This document shows, piece by piece, positions 25,062-33,768 of a DNA stretch of 35,843 nucleotides. Position numbers and translations under genes: made by a program. Origin of the DNA: Opitutaceae bacterium (GTDB lineage: Bacteria; Verrucomicrobiota; Verrucomicrobiia; Opitutales; Opitutaceae); assembly GCA_027482905.1 (NCBI GenBank), contig JAIXVP010000414.1:1-35843 (forward strand), read 5' to 3'. The notes beneath the pieces are model-generated. The model did not search any database and was not told where the DNA came from. It was given only the letters and a program-made list of their open reading frames with translations. Every line of letters starts with the position of its first letter. The first letter of the stretch is position 1.

Positions 25062-26570
25062 TCAGGCCTCCAGCTGGGGACGGACGGCCTCGGGCCAGTC
25101 GATGTGGAAGAACTTCCCGCGGGGCTGGTCGACGCGCTCGTAGGTGTGGGCGCCGAAGTAGTCGCGCTGGGCCTGGAGCAGGTTGGCGGGCAGGCGGGCG
25201 GAGCGGTAGGCGTCGTAGTAGCTCAGGGCCGAGGCGAACGTCGGCACGCTGATGCCGCTCTCCACCGCGAGGGCGATGACCTTGCGCCAGTTGGCCTGGG
25301 CCTTCTGGATGGTGGCGTTGAAATACTCGTCGAGCAGGAGGTTCGCGAGCTTGGGGTCGCGGGCGTAGGCCTCGGTGATCTTCTGCAGGAAGGCGGCGCG
25401 GATGATGCAACCGCCGCGGAAGATCTGGGCGATCTGGCCGAAATTGAGTTTCCAGCCGTATTCGCCCTGGGCGGTGCGCATGAGCTGGAAGCCCTGCGCG
25501 TAGGAGCAGATCTTCGAGCAGTAGAGGGCGTCGTGGATGGCCTTGATGAGGGCCTTCTTCTGGGCGGGGCCGACCTTCTTCACCTTCGGGCCCTTGAGGA
25601 CCTTCGAGGCGGCGACGCGCTCGTCCTTGATCGCGGAGATGCAGCGGGCGAAGACGGACTCGGCGATGGTCGGGGCGGGCACGCCCATGTCGAGGGCGTT
25701 GACCGAGGTCCACTTGCCCGTGCCCTTCTGGCCGGCGGTGTCGAGGACGACGTCGACGAAGGGCTTCTTCGTGACCGGGTCCTTCTGCTTGAGGATGTCG
25801 GCGGTGATCTCGACGAGGAAGCTGTCGAGCGCGCCCTTGTTCCACTGGGAGAAGATCTCGCCCATCTCGGCTGGCTTGAGGCCGAGGAGGCCCTGCATGA
25901 GGGAGTAGGCCTCGCAGATCATCTGCATGTCGCCATACTCGATGCCGTTGTGGACCATCTTCACGTAGTGGCCGGCGCCGTTTTCACCGATGTAGGTGGT
26001 GCAGGGCACGCCGCCCTTGACGGGCTTGCCGGGCTTGGCGCCCATGATCGGCTTGCCGGTCTTCTTGTCGACCTTGGCGGCGATGGCCTTCCAGATCGGC
26101 TCGAGGTGCTTGAAGGCGGCCTTGTCGCCGCCGGGCATGAGGGAGGGGCCGAAACGCGCGCCTTCTTCGCCGCCGGACACGCCGGAGCCGATGAAGAGGA
26201 AACCCTTTTCCTTGAGCGCCTTTTCACGGCGGATGGTGTCGGTCCAGAGGGCGTTGCCGCCGTCGATGATGATGTCGCCGGGTTCGAACACCTGGGTGAG
26301 GCCGTCGATCACGGCATCGGTGGGCTTGCCGGCCTGGACGAGGATGATGGCCTTGCGGGGCTTGGAGAGGGAGGCGGCGAACTCCTGGAGGGTCTTGGTG
26401 CCGACGACGCCGCCGGGGGTGTTCGGGTTTTCCGCGGCGAACTTGTCGGTCTTCTCGACGGTGCGGTTGTAGACCGAGATCTGGAAGCCGTGGTCGGCGA
26501 TGTTGAGGGCGAGGTTCTGACCCATGACGGCGAGGCCGATGAGTCCGATGTCGGATTGCTTCGTGGACAT
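25062..26570 (-). CDS. gnd: 6-phosphogluconate dehydrogenase, decarboxylating
   Basis: A 502-residue protein starting at ATG 26568-26570. It oxidatively decarboxylates 6-phosphogluconate to ribulose 5-phosphate with NADP+, a step of the oxidative pentose phosphate pathway. The coenzyme fold has [20 protein letters not shown] and the NRT segment after it. [34 protein letters not shown] and the catalytic [13 protein letters not shown] are intact, and the C-terminal helical domain has [24 protein letters not shown] and the tail with the substrate-contacting THTYERVD-type segment (AHTYERVD). Length is slightly above the usual 470-490 because of a Lys/Gly/Pro-rich insert between KVDKK and CTTYIG. 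A strong hairpin lies downstream. Confidence 0.96.
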
Positions 26571-26781: not shown

Positions 26782-29700
26782 ATGTTGTTTCCCAGCCGCT
26801 TCCGGCCGGCTCGTGCGTCACGTCTCGTGGCGACGGCGCTTGGCATCCTCCATCTGGCCGCGGCTGTCCTCGCCGCCAACGACCCCGGCGGCGGCGCGGC
26901 CGGGGTCGGCGCCAACGTCACCTTGTCCGCCACGTCGACCACCGCCACCCTCGACAACGGCGTCATCAACGCGGTCGTCGACAAGGCCACCGGCCGCGTC
27001 ACGAGCTACAAGCTCAACGGCGTCCAGATGGTGGATCCGAGCAATCCCATCTATTACAGCATGGACGGGGGCGCGAGCTACGAGCAGCCGAGCGGCTGCG
27101 TCTACTCGGTCGTCACCCAGACCACCGACATGGTGGAGATCTCGTGCAAACGCACCTGGAACGCGACCGCCGGCTACAAGCACGTCTTCGACATCGATCT
27201 GCGCTGGGTGCTGCGCCGCGGCGACACCGGGCTCTACGCCTACGCCATCCTCGACCACCCGGCCTCGTATCCGGCCGCCACCGTCGGCGAGTGGCGCATC
27301 GTCTGGAAGCTCCCGCGCACGTCCACGACCTTCACCTTCGAGCGGGCCTACGTCGACGCGCTGCGCAACTGGGAGATGCCGTCCTACTACGACTATCAGC
27401 AGTCCTCGCCCACCTCCATCGCCGAGATCGTGAAGCTCAACACCGGCGTGCGCGCCGGCAAATACGACGGCAAGTATTCCTACTCCGCGCGCTACTTCGA
27501 CATCGGGACCTGGGGCCACGCCAGCAACATCGCCAAAAAGGGCGTGTGGTTCGTGCTCGGCGGCCACGACTACTTCAACGACGGCCCGACCAAGCAGGAT
27601 CTCACCACCTCGGAGAGCTACATCCTGATGCACTTCGGGCGAAACCACTACGACGGCTCCGGCATCGGCGTCGCCGCCGGCGAGTCGTGGCGAAAGATGT
27701 TCGGCCCCTTCCTGCTGTATTGCAACAGCACTACGGCGACGAGCAACGCCGGCGACGCGCTCTGGGCCGACGCCAAGGCCCAGGTCGCCGCCGAGAAGGC
27801 CGCCTGGCCCTACTCCTGGCTCGTCAACGCCGACCATCCCGCCGCCACCGGCCGCGGCACCGTGACGGGCAAACTCGTGATCGCCGACGCGCTCAAATCC
27901 GGCGTGAGCGGCGCCGGCGCCCGCGTCGGCCTCGCCGCCCCGGAGGACGTGGCCGGAAACTGGCAATTCCAGGGCAAGGGCTACCAATACTGGACCGTCG
28001 CCGACGCCGCGGGAAATTTCACGATCCCCGGCGTCCGCCCCGGCTCCTACACGCTCTACGCGTTCAACGACGGCGTGGTCGGCGAGTTTTCCAAGACCGC
28101 CGTGACCGTCGCCGCCGGCGGCACCAACGCCCAGGGCACGCTCACGTGGACCGTCGCCCATCCGGGATCGAGCATCGCGTGGGAAATCGGCACGCCCGAC
28201 CGCACCGCGAAGGAGTTCCGCCACGGCAACGACTACTTCGAGCCCTTCCTCTGGAACGGCTTCTCCGCCGAGCTGCCCAACCCGCTCGTCTACACCGTCG
28301 GCACGAGCAACCCCGCCACCGATTGGAACTACGTCCACACCCTCTACGCCACCACCGACGCCAACGGCGCCGTCACGACTGTCCCTTGGAATTGGAAGGT
28401 GAACTTCACCCTCCCCGCCGTGCCCGCCAGCGGCAACGCCGTGCTCACCGTCGCCTTCGCCGGCTCCAACTACTCCCGCCTCTGGCTTTACCTCAACGAC
28501 GAGCCCAACTCCTTCACGCGCATCTCCCCGCCCGTCGACGGCGGCAACGCCCTCCTTCGCCAGGGCATCCACGCCAAATACAGCCGCGTCGACATCAGCA
28601 TCCCCGTCTCCCGCCTCAAGGTCGGCGCCAACACCTTCACCTTCAGCTTCAGCGGCTCGGACCAGTCGACGCATGTGATGTATGATTACCTGCGGCTCGA
28701 GCTGCCGGCCTTTCCGCCGCCCCCGCCCTCCTCGGGGCGCACCGTGACGTGGAAGGGCGGCTCCACCTCCGCCGCCAACACCTGGGACAACGGCGCCACC
28801 GTCGCCTGGACCGATGCCGCCACGCTCGCCGCCGCGCCTTTCGGCGCCGGGGACAAGGTGGTGTTCGACGACACGGGCTCCAACGTCACCGGCCTCACGC
28901 TGGCCGCCTCCGTCGAGCCGGAGAAAATCACCGTTTCGGGCGCGAAAAACTACGCCCTCGCCGGCGTCGGCGAGCTGCGCGGCCAGATGAGCCTGACGAA
29001 GTCTGGCGCGGGCGTCTTTACGCTCACGCCCGCCTCGCTCTCGCTCGCCGGCGGCTCCACCGCCGCCGGCAGCCCGGTCGTCGCCGTCTCCAGCACCGCC
29101 GGCGCGCTCCCCGGCCTGCTCATCGCCGGCGCGGGCATCCCGGCGGGGACTCGTATCCAGACGGTGGATTCAGCCACCCAGCTCACGCTCACCGCCGGCG
29201 CCACCGCCACCGGCTCGGCCGTGGCCTTCGCCGTCGGCGGCGCGCACACCTTCACCGGCACCACCACCATCAGCGGCGGAGCGATCGCCTTTGGCAGCGA
29301 CGCCGCCAACACCAACGGCCTCGGCGCGAGCGACGTCAGCCTCCAGGGCGGCGCGCTCACGATGTTTACCAGGACCAACAACGCCGTGAGCAGCACCGGC
29401 TCGTGGAACATCGACGTTCCCACCGGCAAGGCCGGCACGCTCAACGTCGGCTGGCGCTGCACGCTGACCGGCAAGCTCACCGGCGGCGGCGTCTTTACCT
29501 ACGCCCTGCCCTCCGGCTCCATCCGCGCCGATATCAAGGGCGACTGGTCCGGCTTCGCCGGCCGCGTCAACGCCACCGCGCCGACCGGCTCGACCGCCGA
29601 CTTTCGCATGGCGCTCGACTACTCCTGGCCCGGCCTGCCCGCCGGCGCGCTTAACCTTGGCCCGGGCGTCATCGCCTACTACTCGGGCAACCTCAACACC

Positions 29701-30906
29701 GGCCTCGGCACCTTCGTGAGCCTCGGCGAACTGTCCGGCTCCGGAAGCCTGAAGGGCGGCGCGATCGGCGGCCGCCAGATCACCTACCGTATCGGCGGAA
29801 TTGCTACAGATGCCGTGTTCTCGGGCGCGATCACCGAGCAGGTCAACGGCATCACGAATCTCGTCAAGGTCGGCGCCGGAACCTGGACCTACTCCGGCGC
29901 CGCCGTCACCAACGGGTCCCTCGGCGTGCAGGCCGGCGCGCTCCGCCTCGCCGGCTCCTTCGCCGCCTCCGCCTCGTCCGTCACCGAGATTGGCGACGCC
30001 GCCACGCTGGCCCTGGCCGGCGGCTCCCACGCCGCCGGCTCCGTCCACATCGGCACCGGCGGGACGCTTGCCGGCCGCGGCGCGCTGACCGCCGCCGTCG
30101 TCAACGACGAGGCCGTCGCCGTCTCCGGCGGCACGCTGTCCGTTTCCGGCGATTTCGCGCACAACGGCTCCCTGGTCGTCGCCGGCGGCTCCCGGCTCTC
30201 GATCACGGGCGCCCTCGCGGTAGACGGCGCCGCGACGTGGCGCGCCGAGCTCGCCGCCAACGCCGCGACCGCCGACGCCCTGGGCCTCGTCGCCGCCGGC
30301 GTAGCCACGCTGGGGTCGGGCGCCACGCTCGACCTCGGGTTTTCCGCCGCCGGCTCCACCGTCGATTTCTCCGCCCCCTTCTGGACCGCGGCGCGCTCGT
30401 GGCCCGTGCTTTCCGCCGGCTCCGTCTCCGGCTCTCTCTCGCTCGGCTCGATCGGCAACGATTCGTCCGGGCGCGCCGCCTCGGCCTACGGCGAGTTTGC
30501 CCTGCAGGCCGCCGCGACCGGCGTCACGCTTTCCTGGACGCCGCTGTCCGCCTTTGAGCGCTGGCAGATCCAGTGGTTCGGCTCCACCGCCGCCGAGGCC
30601 GCCGCGCCGGGCGCCGATCCCGACGGCGACGGCCAGGCCAACGCCGCCGAGCAGATCGCCGGCACCGATCCCACCGATCCGCGCTCGCGCTTCGTCCTCT
30701 CCATCGCCTCCGCCTCGGGCGCTTTGCAGCTCTCCTGGCCCGCCGTCGTGGGCCAGACTTACCAGGTGCAGTCTTGCTCCGATCTCGCCGTCGCCGGCTG
30801 GGCGCCGCTGGCCAGTCTGACCGCCACCGCTTCCACCGCGACCTACGCCCCCGCGCCCTCGGGCGACGCGCGGCGTTTTTATCGCGTCACGACGCCCGCG
30901 CCCTGA
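26782..30906 (+). CDS. secreted rhamnogalacturonan lyase-like protein (PL4) fused to autotransporter-associated beta repeats
   Basis: A 1374-residue exported protein with a signal peptide at about 1-34 (ATALGILHLAAAVLAAN). Residues 38-340 resemble the PL4 catalytic beta-sandwich: TATLDNGVINAVVDKATGRV, then GKYDGKYSYSARYFDIGTWG with Lys227, Lys231, His246 and His262 as candidate catalytic residues. Residues 365-455 form a Fn3/carboxypeptidase-regulatory-like domain (GNFTIPGVRPGSYTLYAF), and 465-645 a carbohydrate-binding-like domain (WEIGTPDRTAKEFRHG, then SRLWLYLNDEP). PL4 enzymes cut rhamnogalacturonan I of pectin by beta-elimination. From residue 654 (WKGGSTSAANTWDNG) to about 1230 there are autotransporter-associated beta-strand repeats, such as VKVGAGTWTYSGAAVTNGSL. 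A calcium-type DPDGDGQANAAEQIAGTDPTD follows at about 1278. No beta-barrel or PEP-CTERM signal closes the protein. The lyase call is by fold pattern and moderate. Confidence 0.78.
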   Translation: MLFPSRFRPARASRLVATALGILHLAAAVLAANDPGGGAAGVGANVTLSATSTTATLDNGVINAVVDKATGRVTSYKLNGVQMVDPSNPIYYSMDGGASYEQPSGCVYSVVTQTTDMVEISCKRTWNATAGYKHVFDIDLRWVLRRGDTGLYAYAILDHPASYPAATVGEWRIVWKLPRTSTTFTFERAYVDALRNWEMPSYYDYQQSSPTSIAEIVKLNTGVRAGKYDGKYSYSARYFDIGTWGHASNIAKKGVWFVLGGHDYFNDGPTKQDLTTSESYILMHFGRNHYDGSGIGVAAGESWRKMFGPFLLYCNSTTATSNAGDALWADAKAQVAAEKAAWPYSWLVNADHPAATGRGTVTGKLVIADALKSGVSGAGARVGLAAPEDVAGNWQFQGKGYQYWTVADAAGNFTIPGVRPGSYTLYAFNDGVVGEFSKTAVTVAAGGTNAQGTLTWTVAHPGSSIAWEIGTPDRTAKEFRHGNDYFEPFLWNGFSAELPNPLVYTVGTSNPATDWNYVHTLYATTDANGAVTTVPWNWKVNFTLPAVPASGNAVLTVAFAGSNYSRLWLYLNDEPNSFTRISPPVDGGNALLRQGIHAKYSRVDISIPVSRLKVGANTFTFSFSGSDQSTHVMYDYLRLELPAFPPPPPSSGRTVTWKGGSTSAANTWDNGATVAWTDAATLAAAPFGAGDKVVFDDTGSNVTGLTLAASVEPEKITVSGAKNYALAGVGELRGQMSLTKSGAGVFTLTPASLSLAGGSTAAGSPVVAVSSTAGALPGLLIAGAGIPAGTRIQTVDSATQLTLTAGATATGSAVAFAVGGAHTFTGTTTISGGAIAFGSDAANTNGLGASDVSLQGGALTMFTRTNNAVSSTGSWNIDVPTGKAGTLNVGWRCTLTGKLTGGGVFTYALPSGSIRADIKGDWSGFAGRVNATAPTGSTADFRMALDYSWPGLPAGALNLGPGVIAYYSGNLNTGLGTFVSLGELSGSGSLKGGAIGGRQITYRIGGIATDAVFSGAITEQVNGITNLVKVGAGTWTYSGAAVTNGSLGVQAGALRLAGSFAASASSVTEIGDAATLALAGGSHAAGSVHIGTGGTLAGRGALTAAVVNDEAVAVSGGTLSVSGDFAHNGSLVVAGGSRLSITGALAVDGAATWRAELAANAATADALGLVAAGVATLGSGATLDLGFSAAGSTVDFSAPFWTAARSWPVLSAGSVSGSLSLGSIGNDSSGRAASAYGEFALQAAATGVTLSWTPLSAFERWQIQWFGSTAAEAAAPGADPDGDGQANAAEQIAGTDPTDPRSRFVLSIASASGALQLSWPAVVGQTYQVQSCSDLAVAGWAPLASLTATASTATYAPAPSGDARRFYRVTTPAP

Positions 30907-30970: not shown

Positions 30971-32053
30971 ATGGTTGAAGAACGCGAATCGCCGGACGCC
31001 CCGCGCCAGCAGATGAAGAAGCCCGCCTTTCCGGTTGGCGACGCCCTCCGCGCCTACCTGCGGCGGGTGCGGCGCGAGCGCGAGCTGCCCGCCACCTACG
31101 AGCGTCTGCGGCGCTTCGCCGACTCGGTCCCGCTCTCCGACCGGCTGGGCAAGCCCACGCTCTGGGAGAGCGTGTTCTACGATCGCCTCGACATGCAGGC
31201 CCTGCACGACGACCTGAAGCGCGTCTACGCCATCCTGCGCGTCGACGGCGATCTCTCGGTGATGCAGCACCTCTACATCGACCGCATCGACTTCTGCGCC
31301 TTCGGCAACTCCGCGCCCTTCCGCGTGCGGATCGTCAACGCCTACAACGACAATCCCGACCACTTCTACATCAAGCGCGGCGACGCCTCGCGCATCTACG
31401 GACTGGAGCTCGAGCACCTGCTCTCGCCCAACCGCCTCAACTATCTCACCTGCGGCTCCACGCTCGTCGAGGAGCACATCGCCGGCATCCCGGGCAACGA
31501 GTTCATCGACCGCTGGCTCGACAACCCCGAGATCCGCGGCGTGCGCCTGGCCAAGGAACTGGTCAAATTCAACGAGCGCTGCTTCATCCGCCTGCTCGGC
31601 GACATGCGCGCCTACAACTTCGTGGTCGTCGTGACGCCCGACTTCGAGGGCGCGCAGATCCGGGTGCGCGCGATGGACTTCGACCAGCAGAGCTACGAGG
31701 GCCGGCTCAACCTCTACAAGCCGCAGTTTTTCAAGGACAACGCGCCCTTCGCGCTCTTTTGCGCGAAGCACCTGCGCATCGAGACCGCGCACCAGTATCA
31801 GCGCGAGGAGCAGGTGCTCATCCTCCAGCGCGCGGCCATCATCGAGGAGCGCCTCGGCCTGCTCCTGCACGCCATGTCGCTCGATCCGCTGGCGCCGCCC
31901 GAGAACGTGCGCCAGCTCCGCGAGTCGCTCGCCGAGCACTACAAGCGCCGCGAATACCTCGCCTGCGAATCGATGGGCGCGCTGGTGCGCGAAAACCTCG
32001 AAAGCATCCGCCGGCTCGTGGCCGTCGGCGGCGGCGCGCCCGGGGCGGCCTGA
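30971..32053 (+). CDS. kinase-like protein of unknown function
   Basis: A 360-residue soluble protein with no signal peptide. The order of its motifs suggests a protein-kinase-like fold. HFYIKRGD has Lys135 in the place of the ATP-binding Lys. RIYGLELEHL has Glu148 where the helix-C Glu would lie. STLVEEHIAGIPGNEFI (163-179) looks like a hinge region of aminoglycoside-phosphotransferase type. RLLGDMRAYNFVV has Asp211 and Asn216 in an H-G-D-x-x-x-x-N-like catalytic loop, with Leu replacing the usual His. VRAMDFDQQS (233-241) supplies the metal-binding DFD. I recognise no named family and the N-terminal 100 residues are novel to me. It lies 5 bases before a DUF3592 membrane protein gene, with a second small membrane protein after that. 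Activity on a protein, sugar or lipid is open. Confidence 0.6.
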   Translation: MVEERESPDAPRQQMKKPAFPVGDALRAYLRRVRRERELPATYERLRRFADSVPLSDRLGKPTLWESVFYDRLDMQALHDDLKRVYAILRVDGDLSVMQHLYIDRIDFCAFGNSAPFRVRIVNAYNDNPDHFYIKRGDASRIYGLELEHLLSPNRLNYLTCGSTLVEEHIAGIPGNEFIDRWLDNPEIRGVRLAKELVKFNERCFIRLLGDMRAYNFVVVVTPDFEGAQIRVRAMDFDQQSYEGRLNLYKPQFFKDNAPFALFCAKHLRIETAHQYQREEQVLILQRAAIIEERLGLLLHAMSLDPLAPPENVRQLRESLAEHYKRREYLACESMGALVRENLESIRRLVAVGGGAPGAA

Positions 32054-32058
32054 CGCCC

Positions 32059-33243
32059 ATGGCCTACGCGCGCCCCAGTCTAGGTTCAGGTCTGTTGGTC
32101 GCGCTTTTCGCGCTGCCTTTCTTCGGCGTCGGCGCGGGCATGACCTGGTGGCAATGGCGCGAGTTCTCGCGCAGCCGCGAGATCCTGTCGGAATGGACGT
32201 CCGTTCCCGCCCGGATCGAGTCGGCCGAGCTTGAGCGCAGCCGCGGCTCCAAGGGCGGCACGACCTACCGTGCCGTCGGCTCTTTCAGCTACGAGGCGGG
32301 TGGGCGCGAGCGGCGTTCCGAGACCCTGACCCTCGGCCAGGGGGCGGACAACATCGGCGGGTTCCAGCACGCGTTGCACCGCGAGATGAGCGCGGCGCTG
32401 AAATCCGGCCGGCCGCTCACCGCCTACGTGAACCCGGCCGATCCCGCCGAGGCCGTGCTGCGGCCCGCGTGGCGCGCGGAGATGGGCCTTTTCAAGGCGC
32501 TGTTCGGCGTGGTTTTCGGCGGCGTGGGCGGGGCCATCTTGCTCGGGTCGGCGTTTGCCCTGGCCTCGGCCTGGCGCGACCGCGGACTGAGGGAGCGCCA
32601 TCCCGGCGAGCCCTGGCGCTGGCGGGCCGACTGGGCGGCGGGCGTGTTGAGGCCCTCCTTTCCCGCCAAGGTCGCGACCGCGCTCGCGGCGCTCGCGATG
32701 CTAAACGCCTCCACCCTGCCGCTCTGGACCGCGCTGCCCGGGGAGTGGGCGGCGGGGGGAGGATTTCGCTGGATGCTGGCGGGCGCGCTGCTCGGCGTGG
32801 CGACGGGCTGCGCCTTCTGCGTCCGCACCCTGGTCCGGGCTTGGAGCCATCGCGGCTTCTCGGTCGCGCTGGGCGCGTCGCCCTTGCGTCCGGGCGAGCC
32901 GGCGCGGCTGGAGCTGCGCCTGCCGGGCGGTCTGGCGTCGGGTTCGGTTCTCCGGGCGGAGATCGTGTGCGATCACCTGGTGACGACGGGCCACGGCAAG
33001 CGACGCCGCACCGAGCGCAGCACGGTGTGGCGGCACGAGCAGGAGATCGCGGAGCGGGTGTTCGCCGGCCAGACGGTCGCGATCGTCGCCGACTTGCCCG
33101 CCGGACTGCCGTCCAGCTCGCCGGAGATTTCCGACGATCGCCACGTGTGGGAACTCCGCCTGAAGGGTCGCGGGCCGGGTCCGGATTTGGCGACGAAGAT
33201 CGAGCTGCCGGTCTTCTCGCGGGCGGCCGGCGGGGCCGCTTGA
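32059..33243 (+). CDS. DUF3592 membrane protein
   Basis: A 394-residue membrane protein starting at ATG 32059, 5 bases after the kinase-like gene. The first transmembrane segment (about 10-30) is followed by a DUF3592-like extracytoplasmic domain: SEWTSVPARIESAELERSR, YRAVGSFSYEAGGRE, and LTAYVNPADPAEAVLRP. That V-P-A-x-I ... Y-x-Y ... V-x-Y-N-P-x-x-P pattern is diagnostic. Three more membrane segments lie at about 143-171, 203-222 and 235-257. The C-terminal 130 residues form a beta-rich soluble domain (LRPGEPARLELRLPGG, HVWELRLKGRG), similar in style to immunoglobulin-like domains in other DUF3592 proteins. Function of the family is unknown. Spacing suggests cotranscription with the kinase-like gene. 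Confidence 0.82.
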   Translation: MAYARPSLGSGLLVALFALPFFGVGAGMTWWQWREFSRSREILSEWTSVPARIESAELERSRGSKGGTTYRAVGSFSYEAGGRERRSETLTLGQGADNIGGFQHALHREMSAALKSGRPLTAYVNPADPAEAVLRPAWRAEMGLFKALFGVVFGGVGGAILLGSAFALASAWRDRGLRERHPGEPWRWRADWAAGVLRPSFPAKVATALAALAMLNASTLPLWTALPGEWAAGGGFRWMLAGALLGVATGCAFCVRTLVRAWSHRGFSVALGASPLRPGEPARLELRLPGGLASGSVLRAEIVCDHLVTTGHGKRRRTERSTVWRHEQEIAERVFAGQTVAIVADLPAGLPSSSPEISDDRHVWELRLKGRGPGPDLATKIELPVFSRAAGGAA

Positions 33244-33294
33244 GGCTTGGCGCGTCGGTCCGGCCGTCTCTGACTCGACGCATTCCCGGCCAAC

Positions 33295-33768
33295 ATGCCC
33301 TCTCCCGCTCCCGAATCCCCCGTCGCCGCGCATCACGAGGAGGCGCGCCATCTGCTCGCCGTGGGCGGCGGCCTGCGCGGCGCGCTGGAGTTGCTGCTGT
33401 CGCAGTTCAACGTGCTGCAAACGCGCGCGCAGCTGCTTTTGACCGTCTCGACCCTGGCGCTCACCATCACCGGTTTCTCCGGGCCAAAGATCGCGCAGGC
33501 GGGCGCGTTTCCCCGGCTGGCGATGGCGGGCGGCCTGTCGCTCGTGCTCGCCTCGATGCTGCTGATCCTTGGCGGCTCGCTGCGCATCCGCTGGGTCACG
33601 CAGTTTCGCGCGCCCCCGGGCGGGGGCGACGAGGCGCTGCTGGCCCAGATCGTATGCTACCGCGAGCGCAAGACGCGGCTGTTTTTCCTCGAGGTGTGCC
33701 TGCTGCTGGGCGGGCTGAGCGCCTACGTGGCGGCGATCGTCACCTACTTTCTCGCCGGCGCGCCGTAG
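33295..33768 (+). CDS. small three-span membrane protein of unknown function
   Basis: A 157-residue protein starting at ATG 33295, 51 bases after the DUF3592 gene. Hydrophobic segments lie at about 46-64 (QLLLTVSTLALTITGF), 74-95 (LAMAGGLSLVLASMLLILGG) and 130-153 (FLEVCLLLGGLSAYVAAIVTY). The amphipathic stretch before the first span (LRGALELLLSQFNVLQTRAQ) could form a helix lying along the membrane or packing with partners. Charged loop residues IRWVTQFRAP and CYRERKTR face one side. I recognise no family. It is the third gene of the kinase-like/DUF3592 run and may be part of the same unit. Confidence 0.72.
   Translation: MPSPAPESPVAAHHEEARHLLAVGGGLRGALELLLSQFNVLQTRAQLLLTVSTLALTITGFSGPKIAQAGAFPRLAMAGGLSLVLASMLLILGGSLRIRWVTQFRAPPGGGDEALLAQIVCYRERKTRLFFLEVCLLLGGLSAYVAAIVTYFLAGAP

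Follow-up and report, generated by a model that had tools for sequence, protein, structure and literature searches.

The window, by which we mean the whole 35,843-nucleotide stretch of Opitutaceae DNA analysed here, encodes a 360-residue protein that is most probably (at roughly three chances in four) an active, soluble phosphotransferase that depends on ATP and belongs to a kinase-like family not described before. This is the best reading of the protein because every residue expected in an active kinase is present and unchanged among its homologues. The gene, which ends with its stop codon at position 32053, is a genuine one, and strong purifying selection acts on it. Codon differences from close relatives fall mostly at third positions (19, 16 and 93 differences at positions 1, 2 and 3, respectively, for the relative L003), and this bias, together with homologues in hundreds of genomes and the invariance of the residues named below, shows that it represents more than a chance open reading frame. 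The source genome is a draft of 4.35 Mb in 457 contigs, with an estimated completeness of 86.9% and contamination of 4.8%.

Conserved residues of the kinase-like protein

The gene and the motifs of its product are located in the window as follows.

30971..32053, plus strand: gene for the kinase-like protein, 360 aa (open reading frame, homologue family, third-position bias of codon changes)
31301..31324, plus strand: FGNSAPFR, residues 111-118 (N113, P116 and R118 invariant, G112 conserved in at least 90%)
31373..31375, plus strand: Lys135, the putative beta3 lysine, in YIKRGD (invariant in 69/69; modelled strand 129-136)
31412..31414, plus strand: Glu148, the putative alphaC glutamate (invariant in 69/69; modelled helix 139-151)
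31466..31486, plus strand: VEEHIAG, residues 166-172, hinge-like (E167, H169 and G172 invariant; follows strand 164-168)
31598..31618, plus strand: GDMRAYN, residues 210-216, catalytic-loop motif with Asp211 and Asn216 (G210, D211, M212, R213 and N216 invariant)
31673..31690, plus strand: MDFDQQ, residues 235-240, DFG-like metal-binding motif with Asp236 and Asp238 (D236, F237, D238 and Q239 invariant)

The first-pass annotation of this DNA had recognised the reading frame and, in kinase-like order, YIKRGD, Glu148, VEEHIAGIPG, GDMRAYN and MDFDQQS, with Leu in place of the usual His, and all of these were found as it had described them. In an alignment of 69 non-redundant homologues with 44-82% identity to the window protein, 64 columns are invariant. 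Free variation of Lys135, Asp211, Asn216 and Asp236 had been named as the observation that would speak against the kinase-like reading; these four residues, as well as Glu148, Glu167 and Asp238, are identical in all 69 sequences. The conserved blocks read FGNSxPFR, NxxNxNxDxxYxKxxDxSRxxGLExE, ExHxxGxPG, GDMRxxN, TPD and [IM]DFDQ. The residue set of the superfamily, i.e. beta3 Lys, alphaC Glu, catalytic Asp, Asn at Asp+5 and metal-binding Asp, is thus present in order and conserved throughout the alignment. The spacing from hinge to Asp211 is 44 residues, as expected for a kinase, and that from Asp211 to Asp236 is 25, a little above the usual value.

The kinase-like working of the protein is supported by these residues and by the predicted fold. 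Mg-ATP would be bound between the two lobes by the Lys135-Glu148 pair, the hinge at residues 166-172 and the metal ligands Asn216 and Asp236, and phosphate would be transferred with Asp211 as the catalytic base to either a protein or a small molecule. FGNSAPFR, which the AlphaFold2 model puts between strand 101-109 and strand 117-123, probably serves as the phosphate-binding loop that joins beta1 to beta2, replacing the Gly-rich loop of other kinases. The catalytic loop, LGDMRxxN, carries the nearly invariant Leu209 at the place usually taken by His. With no His before the Asp, and with the K-x2-D-x2-R arrangement, the protein looks closer to the PI3K/PI4K and HipA styles than to the HRD or HGD styles.

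Such departures from the usual pattern could also mean that a kinase fold has been put to other chemistry, such as the transfer of AMP as in SelO, or that the protein is a nucleotide-binding regulator. The odd catalytic loop, in which Leu stands for His and Arg213 occupies the DxH position, is compatible with this, as is the replacement of the Gly-rich loop by the conserved FGNSxPFR, and fold predictions are silent on chemistry. A non-catalytic regulator, however, would have no need of the complete and invariant Lys, Glu, Asp, Asn, Asp set, and we regard this explanation as unlikely.

Predicted structure and structural matches

The phosphotransferase reading calls for a bilobal kinase fold, which the first-pass annotation had proposed should be sought by structure prediction and Foldseek. 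Two AlphaFold2 models were obtained, the first from 70 homologues (mean pLDDT 67.8) and the second from 77 sequences with trimmed ends (mean pLDDT 70.4). Both are mostly confident up to about residue 165 and show an N-lobe of kinase type in this part, in which a core strand bears Lys135, the helix after it Glu148 and the hinge Glu167. The predicted order is strands 101-109, 117-123 and 129-136 (with Lys135), helix 139-151 (with Glu148) and strands 158-161 and 164-168. The C-lobe would continue with helices 175-182 and 195-208, the loop of Asp211 and Asn216, a hairpin (218-224/227-233), Asp236 and further helices. About residues 170-261, which include the GDMRAYN and MDFDQQ stretches and hence the catalytic and metal motifs, pLDDT is below 50 in both models, and the trimmed ends and 77 sequences of the second did not rescue it; the secondary structure of this stretch nevertheless follows the kinase order. 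The kinase N-lobe is a confident prediction; the C-lobe fold, the use of ATP and the activity of the protein are inferred.

For both models, the 50 best Foldseek rows were without exception chains of the kinase superfamily, led by Vps34 and p110 PI3-kinases. The best matches were weak, with an E-value of 1.6e-3 and a probability of 0.93 for the first model, and of 3.6e-2 and 0.35 for the second. PI3K was likewise dominant among the matches listed by VIA-align (Z of 5.2 and 6.0 for the two models; 6.0 for p110delta). The clearest local match was to the N-lobe of p110delta alone (113 residues at 3.6 A), and the N-lobe match of residues 39-172 of the window protein to residues 686-831 of p110delta (5vlr_A) supports the position of the hinge. 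The N-lobe also aligned with the choline kinase LicA (84 residues, Z 4.9) and with APH(2'')-Ia (90 residues, Z 5.5), at 3.7-3.8 A. Z values of this size can arise without kinship, as the tool itself notes, so they support the motif reading without proving it.

It could be argued that the protein is an enzyme of another kind, with motifs that resemble those of kinases by chance and a Foldseek list that reflects the common mixed beta-sheet and helix architecture of its N-terminal part. The low confidence of the C-lobe in both models, the weak structural matches with a worse E-value for the second model, and the lack of profile-level homology to kinases (see below) are all in line with such a view. 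Set against this are the order of the motifs, the hinge-to-Asp spacing and the predicted secondary structure, all of which fit a kinase fold, as well as the agreement of every top match for both models; we consider a non-kinase enzyme improbable, and somewhat more so than a kinase fold with other chemistry. With invariant residues, secondary structure in kinase order and top structural matches that are all kinases, the earlier motif reading is supported.

Comparison with known kinase families

Sequence and profile searches against Pfam, NCBIfam, PADLOC and PDB gave no relevant match for the window protein, in agreement with the first-pass annotation, which had assigned it to no known family. 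None of the 69 family members matched the Pfam kinase models, and literature searches returned nothing on such a family. The first-pass annotation had also suggested profile-profile comparison with kinase clans. For this purpose hhalign was applied to sets of 30 proteins of HipA, four of APH and four kinase domains of the PI3K family, each verified by its PDB sequence. With the shallow query profile (Neff 2.7), scores against HipA, APH and PI3K/PI4K/mTOR were no better than those of nine unrelated neighbour families used as controls, so that no profile-level link was found and membership of the PI3K, HipA or APH families is not claimed. An alignment of the core with HipA, which placed Asp211 and Asn216 on the HipA Asp and Asn, scored below the controls and was discarded as evidence. 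Kinase folds are known to persist after similarity in sequence has faded.

Among characterised groups, the PI3K/PI4K/PIKK kinases (PF00454; p110, Vps34) provide the best fold matches for both models. The K-x2-D-x2-R that follows the beta3 Lys recalls the KxGDDLR of this group, and the DF after a beta hairpin is shared with it, as is a GD-x4-N catalytic loop that lacks the His in front. Unlike these kinases, the window protein has R for H in DxHxxN, DFD for DFG, neither eukaryote-type accessory domains nor profile-level similarity, and only 76 residues between Lys and Asp, compared with about 113 in p110alpha. Membership of PF00454 was rejected, in that neither the window protein nor its relatives match the model and DMRxxN and DFD are invariant in place of DRHxxN and DFG.

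HipA kinases (PF07804) are, like the window protein, bacterial, with a D-x4-N loop and a later Asp. They belong to a mobile toxin-antitoxin module, whereas the gene discussed here is a single-copy core gene for which no neighbour was seen to recur across clades in the loci examined, and HipA_C proteins occur separately in related genomes. Assignment to HipA was likewise dismissed, there being no HipA_C match, no DxHxxN motif and hhalign scores at control level. APH and the choline kinase LicA (PF01636, PF01633) resemble the window protein in the N-lobe alignment and in the order of D-x4-N and an IDxE-like motif. APH (PF01636) was set aside in view of the absence of a Pfam or profile match and the presence of LGDMRxxN instead of a His-Gly-Asp (HGDxxxxN) loop.

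Neighbouring genes

Three further genes of the window are relevant to the genomic context of the kinase-like gene.

25062..26567, minus strand: 6-phosphogluconate dehydrogenase gene, presumably gnd (named from its sequence), found upstream in divergent orientation in many Opitutaceae (46 loci)
32059..33243, plus strand: DUF3592 membrane protein, 394 aa (Pfam PF12158, E 2.7e-11)
33295..33768, plus strand: three-span hydrophobic protein, 157 aa, no family in Pfam or NCBIfam

The DUF3592 gene begins with an ATG at 32059, on the same strand and 5 bases beyond the stop of the kinase-like gene, and the small membrane protein gene follows at 33295-33768, as previously noted. From this arrangement it had been suggested that a cytoplasmic kinase and the two membrane proteins could form a small module for signalling or envelope modification. 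The short gap in the window and the occurrence of the three-span gene about 45 bases downstream of the kinase-like gene in several close relatives would suit such a module. Conservation of gene order tells against it. Among the loci examined, the window is the only one in which the DUF3592 gene lies next to the kinase-like gene; the DUF3592 gene is sporadic in relatives, and the best relative of its product, 50% identical, comes from another genome of the genus, where it is encoded at a different place. Downstream of the kinase-like gene, L003 and L004, the nearest relatives (93%), carry different genes. The three-span gene, found in 12 of 14 other genomes of the genus and once, weakly, outside it, lies beside the kinase-like gene only in the nearest relatives, and in one genome of the same genus (G075) about 0.85 Mb away from it. 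Finally, the kinase-like gene occurs in different families without either membrane gene. The three genes are not kept adjacent and neighbourhoods vary, so that the membrane-partner module is largely refuted and very improbable, and the two membrane-protein genes are best taken as neighbours by chance; of the original interpretation, the kinase-like part is supported and the module is not.

The commonest neighbour of the kinase-like gene in Opitutaceae is a divergent upstream gnd (the 46 loci mentioned above), sometimes with a small membrane-protein gene in between. In the window, a large gene of secreted type (26782-30906) separates the two. Its 1374-aa product, judged from sequence only, has a polysaccharide-lyase-like N-terminus and a repeat-rich C-terminus. 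In part of the genus, a gene of this type separates gnd from the kinase-like gene, and other relatives have gnd directly divergent. In one Opitutaceae clade (L030-L039 and similar loci), the kinase-like gene follows an apparent dnaN and a phosphatidylserine-synthase-like gene rather than gnd, both names being taken from the sequences. Beyond Opitutaceae, no neighbour was widely recurrent in the loci examined. The association with gnd may reflect shared ancestry rather than function, and the kinase-like gene is best seen as acting alone, without partner genes.

Distribution of the gene family

A scan of species genomes yielded 342 relatives of the protein, and the best 80 of these 342, which were retained, are mostly from Verrucomicrobiota/Verrucomicrobia, Opitutae or Opitutaceae where the record gives the organism. 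The gene is present in 91 of 100 Opitutaceae genomes, nearly always in one copy (77 of 81 genomes of good quality); one homologue, at locus L022, is that of Geminisphaera colitermitum. Across the phylum it was found in 82 of 387 genomes. These belong to the same order, to a small number of further families in the class and, outside the class, to a single family; identity among genome homologues ranges from 44 to 94%, with 44-58% for those at the level of order and class. A profile built from 69 diverse members again recovered 82 of the 387 genomes and nothing weaker up to an E-value of 0.1, which gives the family a sharp edge. No match was found in the viral, phage and plasmid collections searched, and the gene tree mostly resembles the taxonomy within the order, with some lineages displaced. 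Vertical inheritance of the gene, as a single copy, in Opitutales and some relatives forms part of the explanation preferred here.

Two near-complete Opitutaceae genomes (G021 and G096; 97% and 100%) lack the gene, which is therefore not strictly essential in this family. In the source draft genome (G000), contig C106 carries at its end a second arrangement of gnd, large secreted gene and kinase-like gene (L002, L300; 92-94% identical), and contig C333 a second three-span gene. These second copies probably stem from DNA of a related strain that was included in the assembly.

Significance

Taken further, the data allow the tentative proposal that the protein represents an undescribed kinase-like branch in the style of PI3K and HipA, a core enzyme present as a single copy in nearly all Opitutales, whose substrate would belong to a pathway peculiar to this lineage. 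Should the protein prove to be a kinase, the kinase-like superfamily would gain a divergent family with the signature FGNSxPFR, KxxDxSR, GDMRxxN and [IM]DFDQ. A core gene that nearly all Opitutaceae genomes share, that has 64 invariant positions and that matches no family in the libraries searched points to a basic and as yet unassigned function of this lineage.
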